NCBI GenBank assembly: GCA_013202295.1
Contig: JABMRT010000194.1
Span: 1-32,762 of the forward strand
From: Candidatus Zhuqueibacterota bacterium
GTDB taxonomy: Bacteria > Zhuqueibacterota > QNDG01 > JABMRT01
Length of the DNA stretch: 32,762 nucleotides
Direction of reading: 5' to 3'
Below are positions 4,846 through 32,762 of this stretch, in pieces. The notes under the pieces are model-generated. The model saw only the letters and a program-made list of their open reading frames with translations, was not told the DNA's origin and made no database searches. Position 1 is the first letter of the stretch, and each line of letters begins with the position of its first letter. A program made the position numbers and the translations under genes.

Positions 4846-6162
4846 TTAATCATAATACTCCATGCCCAGATGTGTGATCATCTCTTCACCTTTGAGATAA
4901 CGCAACGTATTTTTCAGTTTCATATGCTGGATGAAAATATCATGCTCAGGGTAGAGGCCTTCAGCAACCATCGGCGCCTTAAAATAAAATGAAAGCCATT
5001 CCTGAATGCCTTTCATGCCTGCGCGCTGAGCCAGATCCATAAACAAAGCCAGGTCAAGCGCGATCGGCGCGGCCAGAATCGAATCACGGCAGAGAAAATC
5101 TATTTTAATCTGCATGCCATATCCCAGCCAGCCGAAGATATCAATATTGTCCCATGCTTCCTTATTGTCCCCGATGGGTGGATAATAATTGATCCGTATT
5201 TTGTGATACAAGTCACCGTACAGTTCTGGATGTTTTTCCGGCTGGAAAATATAATCCAGCGAAGACGCTTTCGATACTTCTTTGGATCGGAACGAAAGTG
5301 GTTCATCCAAAACCAATCCATCCCGGTTGCCGAGGATGTTTGTGGAGAACCAACCCTTGACACCGAGCATCCTGCTTTTGAGTCCGGGTGCAATGATAGT
5401 TTTTATCAGCGTCTGACCGGTCTTGAAATCCTTGCCGGAAATGGCAACGTTGTGTTGCTTGGCCAACTCAGTCAATGCCGGAATATCATGGCACATGTGC
5501 GGCGCGCCATTGGCATAAGGCACACCCATTTTAATGGCTGAATACACATAGATCATGCTGGATGAAATGGATTCTTCGTTGTTTTCCAGTCCTTTTTCGA
5601 AGCTTTCAATGGTGTCCCAAACCGGACTGTATTCGAGATACACCTCTGTGGATCCACACCAGACAATGACCAGACGATCCAGACCATTCTCTTCTTTGAA
5701 TTTGGTCATGTCATCCATGAGCATCTTGGCCAGCTCCATTTTGTTCGAGGCCGATTTCTTGTTCACACCATCCAGATTTTTGACATACTTTTTATCAAAA
5801 ACCGCTTTCATGGGTTTGATCGATTCCAGATAGGGTTTGATCTTGTTCAAATCGTCATTGGTGAGCACACCGGCTTTTTTCGCGGCCACATACGCATTGT
5901 CTTCGTAAATATCCCAACCGCCAAAGACTATATCGTCCAGCTCTGTGAGTGGTACAAAATCTTTGATCATTGGTACATTATCATCCGTACGTTTGCCCAA
6001 TCTGATTGTGCCCATTTGAGTCAATGAACCAAAAGGACGGGAATGTCCTTTCCGAACCAACTCAACTCCTGCAATCAATGTGGTGCCCACTGCACCCATA
6101 CCGGGAATTAAAACACCGAGCTTCCCTTTTGCTTCTTTAATGTTTACACCTTTTTCTGCCAA
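4846..6162 (-). CDS. ino1: Inositol-3-phosphate synthase (MIPS)
   Basis: Converts glucose-6-phosphate to 1D-myo-inositol-3-phosphate using bound NAD, the committed step to inositol. The 438 residues show the NAD-binding loop GVLIPGMGAVGTT, the conserved core motifs VVWCGSTEVY, NGAPHMCHD, GKDFKTGQT (active-site Lys region) and NILGNRDG, and the C-terminal KIDFLCRDSILAAPI. The start codon is TTG at 6162, chosen because a near-perfect AAAGGAGG sits 5 nt upstream; the ATG inside that spacer is out of frame and soon stops. It is the last gene of an operon with rsmI, a CDP-alcohol phosphatidyltransferase and panD, 21 bp after panD, and ends before the hairpin at 4756-4811. The neighbouring phosphatidyltransferase suggests the product feeds inositol phospholipid synthesis. 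Confidence 0.95.
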   Translation of the reverse strand: MAEKGVNIKEAKGKLGVLIPGMGAVGTTLIAGVELVRKGHSRPFGSLTQMGTIRLGKRTDDNVPMIKDFVPLTELDDIVFGGWDIYEDNAYVAAKKAGVLTNDDLNKIKPYLESIKPMKAVFDKKYVKNLDGVNKKSASNKMELAKMLMDDMTKFKEENGLDRLVIVWCGSTEVYLEYSPVWDTIESFEKGLENNEESISSSMIYVYSAIKMGVPYANGAPHMCHDIPALTELAKQHNVAISGKDFKTGQTLIKTIIAPGLKSRMLGVKGWFSTNILGNRDGLVLDEPLSFRSKEVSKASSLDYIFQPEKHPELYGDLYHKIRINYYPPIGDNKEAWDNIDIFGWLGYGMQIKIDFLCRDSILAAPIALDLALFMDLAQRAGMKGIQEWLSFYFKAPMVAEGLYPEHDIFIQHMKLKNTLRYLKGEEMITHLGMEYYD

Positions 6163-6183
6163 AGCATCCTCCTTTGGTTTGGG

Positions 6184-6540
6184 TTAGTGTTTGGATGAAA
6201 CACGATTGTGTTCATCCACAATTATAATTTTTGGTTTGTTGTTTTTTACTTGTTTCTCGTCTATAAACCCATACGACAGAATGATCACCTGATCGCCGAT
6301 CTGCGCCATACGCGCGATTGCACCATTCATCACAATATCACCTTTTCCGCGTTCCCCTTTTATCACATAGGTTTCCGCGCGGGACCCGTTCGCCAAATTC
6401 AACACATGGACTTTCTCATTTTCATACAGTCCGACCGCATCCATTAAATTTTCATCAATCGTAATACTGCCCATATAATTGAGTTCTGCCTGAGTGACTA
6501 TGGCATGGCTAATTTTTGATCGTAATACTTCTAACAACAT
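6184..6540 (-). CDS. panD: Aspartate 1-decarboxylase (proenzyme)
   Basis: Pyruvoyl enzyme making beta-alanine from aspartate for pantothenate and CoA synthesis. I place the start at the ATG at 6540 (118 residues). It has GGGAG 5 nt upstream, and it puts the self-cleavage pair at Gly24-Ser25 (NYMGSITID), exactly where the family has it. A TTG 12 nt further upstream is in frame but overlaps the ribosome binding site. Other conserved features are the SKISHAIVTQAELNY N-terminus and the NGAIARMAQIGDQVIILSY segment, with Asn and Ala-Ala-type contacts to the active site. It sits between the phosphatidyltransferase (17 bp) and ino1 (21 bp). No direct pathway link to inositol lipids is known to me, so the grouping may simply be an operon of convenience. 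Confidence 0.95.
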   Translation of the reverse strand: MLLEVLRSKISHAIVTQAELNYMGSITIDENLMDAVGLYENEKVHVLNLANGSRAETYVIKGERGKGDIVMNGAIARMAQIGDQVIILSYGFIDEKQVKNNKPKIIIVDEHNRVSSKH

Positions 6541-6557
6541 TATAACTCCCAATGGGA

Positions 6558-7184
6558 TTATTTTGAAGCTCCGCCGGATTTCCCGTCTTGCTTCCAGATA
6601 TGCACGATTCGTTGAACCGCAGTAAAATTGGCCATAATTGCGATAATCCAGATTGCCGTAACCAATGCATACGGGTGAATCAATCCTCCAACTGCAAGGA
6701 GAAGGATTCGTTCTGGTCGTTGGAGCAAGCCTACATTACATTCAAAGCCCAATCCTTCTGCGCGCGCCCTGACATAGCTGACCATCATCGAACCACCCAG
6801 TCCGAAGAATATGGCCACGGATGTTCTGTACCATTCCGCATGCACAAAAAAAACAGCCAACCCTAGAAAGTAAAACACTTCTGCGTATCTGTCAAGTGAA
6901 GAATCGTAAAGTGCCCCGAATTTAGATGTTTTTCCGCTGGCCCGGGCCACCTTACCATCAATCGTGTCACAAATACCCGAACCCAACAAAATCAAAGATG
7001 CTATCCTAAAGGATCCTTTTGCAGCAAAATAAGCTGCCACAATACTCACGAGAAAACCTATGCTAGTAAACATATTGGGATTTGCATCGATTCGAATAAA
7101 GAAATTGATGACTGGATTGATTGCTGTGGAATAATAATCCTTCCAGCGATCCGGGATGATCTTCTTTGGTAAAGTTTTATCCAT
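6558..7184 (-). CDS. CDP-alcohol phosphatidyltransferase, likely phosphatidylinositol-phosphate synthase
   Basis: Integral membrane enzyme transferring a phosphatidyl group from CDP-diacylglycerol to an alcohol. With the ATG at 7184 (208 residues; GAGG 4 nt upstream) the complete signature D-x2-D-G-x2-A-R-x8-G-x3-D-x3-D is seen: Asp73, Asp76, Gly77, Ala80, Arg81, Gly90, Asp94 and Asp98. Around it are about six hydrophobic helices (for example FTSIGFLVSIVAAYF). A TTG 24 nt upstream is in frame, but its added residues look non-homologous. The start overlaps the rsmI stop by 8 nt, indicating translational coupling. The family also includes phosphatidylglycerophosphate and phosphatidylserine synthases. 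The inositol assignment is inferred from ino1 in the same operon, as in the inositol-lipid clusters described for Bacteroides and the synthases of actinobacteria. Confidence 0.85.
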   Translation of the reverse strand: MDKTLPKKIIPDRWKDYYSTAINPVINFFIRIDANPNMFTSIGFLVSIVAAYFAAKGSFRIASLILLGSGICDTIDGKVARASGKTSKFGALYDSSLDRYAEVFYFLGLAVFFVHAEWYRTSVAIFFGLGGSMMVSYVRARAEGLGFECNVGLLQRPERILLLAVGGLIHPYALVTAIWIIAIMANFTAVQRIVHIWKQDGKSGGASK

Positions 7185-31523: not shown

Positions 31524-31556
31524 AAAGCCCCGGATCGCTCCATACCGGGGCTTTGT
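31524..31556 (+). terminator. Terminator of the mfd-to-surA genes
   Basis: AAAGCCCCGG (31524-31533) pairs perfectly with CCGGGGCTTT (31545-31554) around an 11-nt loop. The T-run is short (CTTTGTC), but the A-T base of the stem helps. It is nearly symmetrical and lies 22 bp after the surA stop. Confidence 0.85.
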
Positions 31557-31588
31557 CGTTTGTGCCTAAATCCTCGGGAGTAAACTTC

Positions 31589-32089
31589 ATGCATGTAGTT
31601 GCACTCATTGGTTTCTGGCTTGTGATGATTATCGGGATTGTCATCATTCCGTTCGGTGTGGCCGGTACGTTCATCATCGCAGGCGGTGTTCTGGTGCATA
31701 GCTTGCTTACCCAGTTTCAAATCTTTTCCATTTCTTTTATTGCATTGCTTTTCGGCCTGGCCATTCTCGTCGAGCTTATTGAAGCGCTTTTAGGCGCGGT
31801 ACTTGCCCAACGCTTTGGCGGTTCCAAGTGGGGGATGACCGGCGCGATTCTTGGTGGTTTCACAGGCGCGATGCTCGGCACACCGGTGACTCCGGTTATT
31901 GGCACATTATTGGGTGGATTCATCGGTGCATATATCGGCGCAACGGTTTTTGAATATCTTCACAAACCGGATTTCCATTCTGAGATGCGAGTGGGATTCG
32001 GCGCGTTTCTCGGTGCATTGGGGGGCAAGGTGACCAAGGTGGTTGTGGCGATTATTATGGTGATTCTTGTTTCGGTGAAGATGTTTTAA
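31589..32089 (+). CDS. DUF456 family membrane protein
   Basis: A 166-residue hydrophobic protein of the DUF456 family, function unknown. I choose the ATG at 31589 because GGGAG lies 8 nt upstream; the open frame extends 36 nt back to a TTG, but that region overlaps the terminator stem. It has an N-terminal pair of helices (ALIGFWLVMIIGIVIIPFGV, then a segment around GGVLVHSLL), an acidic helix with LVELIEALLGAVLAQ, Gly-rich helices with repeated GG and GxxxG (GAILGGFTGAMLG, GTLLGGFIGAYIG) and a last Gly-rich pair. The glycine-zipper-like repeats suggest tight helix packing. It lies downstream of the surA terminator, and the region beyond is AT-rich. Confidence 0.85.
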   Translation: MHVVALIGFWLVMIIGIVIIPFGVAGTFIIAGGVLVHSLLTQFQIFSISFIALLFGLAILVELIEALLGAVLAQRFGGSKWGMTGAILGGFTGAMLGTPVTPVIGTLLGGFIGAYIGATVFEYLHKPDFHSEMRVGFGAFLGALGGKVTKVVVAIIMVILVSVKMF

Positions 32090-32346
32090 TTTTATTTGGA
32101 TTGATTAAAATCTTCTTATATCAATGTCGTGTGTGAGAGATGATAGTAGAATAAAATAGTAGAGGATTTTTCTAAATTTAATGAAGTTAAAAAAGATTTA
32201 TATAAACAATTGTTGTTATCCCTCCAATTTGGCGATATTAGCATATTGAATATACACAATTGTTACCCAACATAAAAGAAAAGACAACTAACGATATGAC
32301 AATATTAATAAAATGTAGTTTAGATTAAAATAGGATAAATGTGACT
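32090..32346 (+). promoter_or_regulatory. AT-rich leader with candidate promoter and paired palindromes
   Basis: This 257-bp spacer is much richer in A+T than the preceding genes and contains no ORF of note. It holds AACAATTGTT (32205-32214) and a second ACAATTGT palindrome (32256-32263) whose centres are 50 bp apart. Between them TTGGCG (32229-32234), 16 nt, then TATACA (32251-32256) can serve as a sigma70-like promoter. The second palindrome starts on the last base of that -10 box. The arrangement suggests a repressor or redox regulator controlling the downstream enzyme. No terminator hairpin was seen for the DUF456 gene. Confidence 0.4.
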
Positions 32347-32762
32347 ATGAAAGAAATAAAAGATTTAGAATGTACAACCGAAATATATAACTATTATGGT
32401 GCTAAGCCGGAAGGCGAATTTTTAAGTAGAGAAGAAAAAAAATCAGCGACTCCTCGCATTGAAATAGCTCGCCAAATGTATTTCGACACAAAATCTTCTG
32501 CATCTGTTGAGTTTCCTTATTGGTACACACGCCGTTGGGAAGAGCTGGAAGGAGAAGTGCAAATTATTCGAAGAGCAGAAGCTCTTAAATCGGGTTTTGA
32601 ACACTTAACACCTTCTGTATTGCCAGGCGAATTGTTGGCTATGCGAAAAGCAAATTATTTGCGAGGGTCATATCCTATGCCATGGATGTCTGAAGGTTTC
32701 TTCTTATCAAAAGAAGACGATTTGTTCAAAGAAGTTCAAAATGCAGGAAAAGCAAGTGCCGA
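32347..32762 (+). CDS. Glycyl radical enzyme, arylacetate decarboxylase-like (N-terminal part only)
   Basis: The first 138 residues of a large enzyme cut by the window edge. From residue ~35 the sequence follows the glycyl radical enzyme N-domain. EFPYWYTRRW, IIRRAEALKSGFEHLTP, LPGELLAMRKANYLRGSYPM and PWMSEGFF closely resemble my recollection of the 4-hydroxyphenylacetate decarboxylase large subunit (HpdB) and of indoleacetate and phenylacetate decarboxylases. These enzymes make p-cresol, skatole or toluene by radical chemistry under strict anoxia and need a radical-SAM activase. The catalytic Cys and glycyl radical Gly would lie beyond the window, so substrate and integrity cannot be judged. 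ATG at 32347 is used; GTG at 32341 is in frame and better spaced (5 nt) from AGGA at 32332-32335. Codons lean to A/T more than in the core genes. Confidence 0.75.
   Translation, partial: MKEIKDLECTTEIYNYYGAKPEGEFLSREEKKSATPRIEIARQMYFDTKSSASVEFPYWYTRRWEELEGEVQIIRRAEALKSGFEHLTPSVLPGELLAMRKANYLRGSYPMPWMSEGFFLSKEDDLFKEVQNAGKASA

Follow-up and report, generated by a model that had tools for sequence, protein, structure and literature searches.

The window, a stretch of 32,762 nucleotides comprising the whole of contig C181 of the Candidatus Zhuqueibacterota MAG G000 (5.15 Mb, 303 contigs), ends inside an open reading frame (32341/32347-32760, + strand) that reaches the contig edge and has no downstream sequence on C181. 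On the basis of the motifs EFPYWYTR, RRAEALKSGF and RGSYPMPWMSEGFF, all of which we find in the fragment, the first-pass annotation had assigned this frame to the arylacetate decarboxylase branch of the glycyl radical enzymes (GRE) and proposed that it would widen the known range of that branch. The locus thus raises two questions: which decarboxylase is encoded, and how did its gene come to be at this position?

Identity of the hpdB fragment

The frame is genuine, with 138 codons and profile matches far beyond chance. The 138-aa fragment matched the NCBIfam model of the 4-hydroxyphenylacetate decarboxylase (HPAD) large subunit (6.3e-40) better than those of IAD (5.3e-15) and general PFL2 (1.2e-5), and also the solved HPAD structure 2y8n (2e-19). 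On the HPAD model NF033715 the fragment alone gave 137 bits over 121 aa, and HpdB of the window genome was placed via its 95% identity to the protein of locus L036, not via a full-length profile score. Compared with L036 the fragment has a dN of 0.022 and a dS of 0.565 (dN/dS ~0.04), which shows that it is under strong purifying selection.

A scan of genome contigs gave 45 related loci, mostly from Bacteroidales, with L036, L037 and L038 encoding the closest HpdB proteins (95%, 94% and 91% aa identity, respectively). Complete relatives are ~890-900 aa long and carry the C-terminal RVAGF glycyl-radical motif. Every full-length relative keeps F214, S344, F405, C503, E505, H536, E637 and G873 (FSFCEHEG, 8/8), including the thiyl Cys503/Glu505, Glu637, His536 and the glycyl radical Gly873, in a region that is unassembled in G000. 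Scores on NF033715 (cut-off 1150 bits) were 1458 for L036, 1425 for L051 and 1488 for L065. Neighbour-gene clustering revealed a fixed hpdB-hpdC-hpdA order; of the 45 loci, 30 have hpdC (~80 aa) and 38 have hpdA, a radical-SAM gene of ~314 aa. HpdC of both L036 and L037 exceeds the NF033716 cut-off (50 bits; L036 scores 74), and the eight Cys/His residues that we take to bind the Fe-S clusters in the solved enzyme are all kept (8/8); hpdC is unassembled in G000. For hpdA of L036 (L036:10916-11860) the HPAD activase was the best model, at 343 bits and below its cut-off of 420, while the C-terminal part of the G000 copy lies at C100:1-312 and contains an in-frame TGA. An adjacent activase and an HpdC-like subunit, which the first-pass annotation had suggested looking for, are both present in the operons of relatives, as are the catalytic Cys and the C-terminal glycyl radical motif in their full-length proteins.

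Because the closest full-length relatives (91-95%) lie in intact hpdB-hpdC-hpdA operons with all active-site residues, we conclude from sequence comparison that the enzyme is a predicted HPAD, an oxygen-sensitive GRE, and neither IAD nor PhdB. The proposed branch therefore stands and is narrowed to HPAD by the profile scores, HpdC and Glu637 of the relatives. The 91-95% relatives share with the HpdBCA/CsdBCA systems of Clostridium scatologenes (2y8n), C. difficile and Tannerella forsythia the B-C-A order, Cys503, Glu505, Glu637, Gly873 and a small Fe-S subunit with Cys/His ligands. They differ from clostridial HPAD in sequence (~53% identity to the characterised enzyme) and in the transporter of the major facilitator type (MFS) that clostridial relatives often have between C and A and that is missing here. 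This MFS gene was seen between hpdC and hpdA in Bacillota/Chloroflexota relatives (L067-L080, cluster c4) and is absent from the Bacteroidota operons. A protein search of G000 for the rest of hpdB returned just an unrelated PFL-like GRE on C208. That locus (L004:7014-10338) encodes a second full-length GRE with an adjacent activase-like radical-SAM gene, and belongs to the general PFL-like family, far under the HPAD cut-off.

Ends of the hpdBCA unit and its probable attC site

The DNA of the L036 operon matched G000 in two regions and no others: the window end (90% identity) and C100:1-453 (85%). Contig C100 of the same genome (L083) starts inside hpdA, and its first 500 nucleotides, which hold the C-terminal part of hpdA and downstream sequence, are 84.6% identical to the right end of L036. 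Since the L036 operon matches G000 at just these two places, C181 and C100 are, judged by this homology, the two ends of a single hpdBCA unit. By comparison with L036:8415-11547 some 3.1 kb between the contigs are unassembled; no G000 contig spans the cassette, and the assembly lacks hpdC and the greater part of both hpdB and hpdA. The host part of C100 starts with a DUF4159 gene, and in relatives of other families (G008, G007, G005, G011 and G010) DUF456 is directly followed by DUF4159; hpdBCA was therefore inserted between these two genes (Table 1). The GC content is 33-36% inside the unit vs 48-49% in the flanking genes.

Table 1. Features at the right end of the window (the caret marks the cassette junction)
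Feature	Position	Strand	Basis
DUF456 gene, left host flank of the insertion	31553..32089	+	Pfam, synteny
AT-rich flank (25% GC) between DUF456 and the cassette	32090..32262	.	no similarity to other hpd loci
Left part of the predicted hpdBCA integron cassette	32263..32762	+	DNA homology to L036/L037/L038 from 32261-32262; right end C100:1-497
Left junction G^TTACCC	32262..32268	+	GTTACCC = attC R' box in the circle; exact complement of R'' GGGTAAC at C100:374-380
84-bp cassette leader 5' of hpdB	32263..32346	+	conserved in L036, L037, L038
First 138 codons of hpdB (predicted HPAD large subunit)	32347..32760	+	profiles, 2y8n match, 95% aa identity to full-length L036 HpdB

DNA similarity starts 84-86 bp 5' of the ATG in comparisons with all three of L036, L037 and L038, a boundary (84 bp in the window) that the first-pass annotation had overlooked, and similarity to L036 extends to C100:500. 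In G000 the unit is bounded by AATTG^TTACCC on the left (32262/32263) and CCAATCG^TTATTG on the right (C100:497). In L036, which lies in an unrelated marine genome (G194), the corresponding ends are GGCCG^TTACCC and CCAACCG^TTAAAT, enclosing 4,115 bp. The palindrome at the 3' end opens with GGGTAAC (R''), the exact complement of GTTACCC (R'; 7/7), so that an attC of 130 bp with a 7-bp R stem re-forms when the circle is closed. This site sits 3' of hpdA in the proper orientation and has, in addition to complementary R''/R' boxes with AAC/GTT, asymmetric spacers (3/6 and 2/5) and an L stem (10 bp in L036, 7 bp in G000); the fold z-score is -3.8 in L036 and -1.9 in G000. The site departs from the full RYYYAAC/GTTRRRY consensus, agreeing with it at the AAC/GTT core and at the outer positions only; the G194 array (see below) also follows this consensus loosely. 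As a control, 8,994 GTT start points were scored; leaving aside the arrays and the hpd unit, three of them passed, each with the minimum score of 7, compared with 10 for the L036 hpd site. L037 carries a decayed copy of the hpd attC site.

For 26 other hpd loci a junction test gave no clear cassette, with possible weak ones at L048/L064, near the shuffled expectation. Overall 8 loci, including G000 and L036, were picked out vs 3.2 expected after shuffling. Most Bacteroidales hpdBCA operons are therefore not visibly on cassettes. When the window, C100 and the contigs with integrase genes were scanned for attC by a simple method, mostly chance-level palindromes came up, since the R' box is split in the integrated cassette; an Rfam search gave no match. 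No integron platform (attI and tandem array) was detected at the insertion, i.e. there is no further cassette rightward on C100 and no attC in the window by scan, and hpdBCA in G000 is a solitary cassette. Separately, window positions 32205-32264 hold a perfect 9-bp inverted repeat, AACAATTGT / ACAATTGTT, with the arms 42 nt apart and the end exactly over the cassette junction; this repeat may mark a target structure or may be an older, small attC.

Related attC sites, arrays and integrases

Homologues of the hpd attC that are unlinked to hpd were identified in G194, the genome of L036, where attC1 of a five-cassette array is 89% identical, and in G198 (88% and 75%). Their alignment shows a common core that runs from AAC to GTT, and the bases beyond it vary; for true attC sites these outer bases must predict the far end of each cassette. 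On G194:C261 the prediction holds five times in succession, for cassettes of 832, 1101, 1092, 1008 and 1097 bp, all of which have attC sites of 129-132 bp and an exactly matching R''/R' pair; the array lies directly 3' of a tyrosine recombinase gene. A typical integron cassette has one ORF and is ~1 kb long, as are the cassettes in this array.

The window genome also encodes integron integrases. Two G000 genes exceed the curated cut-off of 265 bits (C8:40986-41927 with 451 bits, and a truncated gene on C241 with 369 bits), as does one in G194 and none in the 14 control genomes. No array emerged from the direct repeats around the canonical integrase gene on G194:C153. On C8 of G000 (L113, G000:C8:36000-42917; 4936-6918 within the locus) the canonical integrase gene is followed by a 117-aa ORF, then by a palindrome of 126 bp whose ends match exactly (ATATAAC/GTTATAT), and lastly by an ORF that the contig end truncates; this region is probably G000's own integron. 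The C-terminal part of the 117-aa product resembles an N-terminal extension of one of the G194 recombinases.

The recombinases beside the G194 array (L134:6310-7464, - strand) and beside the L036 hpd cassette (L036:4710-5591, + strand) are 55% identical to each other. Their nearest profiles are XerA-like or split integron-integrase models; the integron-integrase model is matched in two pieces without the IntI-specific stretch, and the L134 protein has an extra ~100-aa N-terminal domain. They are possible members of an unusual class of integron integrases. That an undescribed class of integrons, with an array-adjacent XerA-like recombinase that lacks the IntI-specific stretch, carries in one copy the extra N-terminal domain and is read in the same direction as the cassettes, moved these cassettes including hpdBCA is a tentative idea that we consider doubtful; if true, whole anaerobic catabolic operons would be shipped between phyla. 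Genes for a D12-type DNA methyltransferase and a SacI-like restriction enzyme lie between the recombinase gene and the hpdBCA cassette at L036:5805-7845. More copies of the attC family were seen in Bacteroidales, at L137 (G205:C9) and L135 (G198:C394), one of them bounding a probable cassette of ~1.75 kb with a 524-aa ORF, which suggests a wider Bacteroidota/FCB pool of integron cassettes.

Alternative readings, transfer and predicted activity

Because the same attC site ends the 4,115-bp hpdBCA unit of the marine G194, and a homologue stands in the five-cassette array there, we consider it highly probable that the complete hpdB-hpdC-hpdA operon moves as a single integron gene cassette (~4.1 kb, with its 130-bp attC 3' of hpdA), here residing in a secondary G^TT site between DUF456 and DUF4159. 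This reading draws on the two ends of the cassette and its host flanks, on the operon and active-site residues of near-identical relatives, on the occurrence of a protein of Bacteroidales type in a genome outside the Bacteroidales, and on the integrase genes of G000. Cassettes fixed at secondary sites by IntI (attC x G^TT; PMC2426708) likewise have the attC 3' of the genes, a split R' box, a single flanking attC, a position outside an array and an integrase elsewhere in the genome; they differ in that the present unit is 4.1 kb long and has three genes encoding an anaerobic radical-enzyme system. The location on an integron cassette also sets it apart from the HpdBCA/CsdBCA systems.

The abrupt GC shift at 32090, the 90% DNA identity to other lineages and the breaking of both contigs within a gene might be taken to mean that Bacteroidales DNA was misjoined to this contig end by assembly or binning. 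A simple chimera was ruled out, as C100 carries the other end of the unit and the flanking genes of the two contigs are neighbours in relatives; moreover, each join coincides exactly with an attC-defined end that L036 shares, two independent errors at such points being very unlikely, and we regard contamination as extremely improbable. The hairpin end, together with the lack of an integrase gene beside the G000 insertion, could also fit another element (IS200/IS605-type or MITE-like) with a terminal palindrome that is not an attC. However, the palindrome is at one end only, the R' box is split over both ends exactly as in a cassette, and homologues of the site separate successive G194 cassettes with the R''/R' rule holding five times running, which leaves this explanation highly improbable. 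As to the enzyme, only the N-terminal part of HpdB is visible in G000 and the relatives are 53% identical to characterised HPAD, so another arylacetate (indoleacetate, phenylacetate) or a new compound might be the substrate. IAD and PhdB do belong to the same glycyl radical superfamily and share the reaction type, but L036 HpdB scores 740 bits on the IAD model NF033718, 360 below its cut-off of 1100, vs 1458 on the HPAD model. In addition, the small subunit is present and Glu637 and His536 are kept (FSFCEHEG, 8/8), whereas IAD has Leu in place of this Glu and no small subunit (PMC6181972); Glu637 acts upon the para-hydroxyl group (PMC4979209). A substrate other than 4-hydroxyphenylacetate is therefore very unlikely.

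Returning to the hpdBCA cassette, an integron integrase would fold the attC strand and excise the circle between R'' and R', and the circle would then recombine with a G^TT target, here the secondary site between DUF456 and DUF4159, outside any array. Integration at a secondary site leaves a single recombination site and makes excision unlikely (PMC2426708), and since a lone attC is rarely excised the cassette is expected to be fixed there. In the HpdB tree the G000 fragment groups with L036, L037 and L038 within a clade of Bacteroidota (100/99), while MnmG of the window genome is just 52-53% identical to MnmG of the genomes with these loci. In the MnmG tree the L036 host is not with Bacteroidales and pairs with an Ignavibacteria genome (97/96). 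Among 82 genomes of the window's phylum no HpdB-like match was found at E <= 1e-150, in a search without internal positive control. The hpdBCA cassette apparently came from Bacteroidales into an unrelated phylum. The presence of HPAD in Bacteroidota is not in itself new, since the enzyme is known from the FCB member Tannerella forsythia (PMC6181972), and environmental Bacteroidales commonly have it. The suggested widening of the known range thus needs revision, as the copy here is, by its sequence affinities, not a resident of the lineage but an operon of Bacteroidales type brought in on an integron cassette.

In the host, HpdA would install the glycyl radical on HpdB, and HpdBC would then decarboxylate 4-hydroxyphenylacetate to p-cresol, as expected for the family. 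The substrate could derive from tyrosine via an arylpyruvate:ferredoxin oxidoreductase, and IorA of G000 is over its cut-off (C119). An in-frame TGA at C100:41-43 (L083:41-43), where L036 has GGA, represents either a broken gene or a contig-edge error, and it raises the prospect of a genuine cassette that is dead in this genome and makes no p-cresol. At 41 bp from the contig edge, the stop lies where errors or mixed strains are likely. Apart from it, constraint on the hpdA fragment is as strong as in other pairs, for which reason relaxed selection on hpdA was dropped as an explanation, and hpdB is strongly constrained as well; furthermore, a second GRE activase, encoded on C208, might serve in trans. 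On this evidence a dead cassette is unlikely, though it is an appreciable possibility.

The enzyme family is known, and the surprise is its vehicle, the integron cassette. Integron cassettes have chiefly been described as small units, mostly with a single gene, that are linked to resistance and accessory functions, and a literature search of incomplete coverage returned no paper naming integrons together with HPAD. As a caution, MAG contig ends can break within such shared cassettes. A 4.1-kb cassette with the catalyst, its Fe-S partner and its own activase would be self-sufficient for a demanding anaerobic reaction wherever it is transcribed. It offers a concrete and testable route for the patchy formation of p-cresol across phyla, and it would make integrons movers of metabolic operons between deep lineages.
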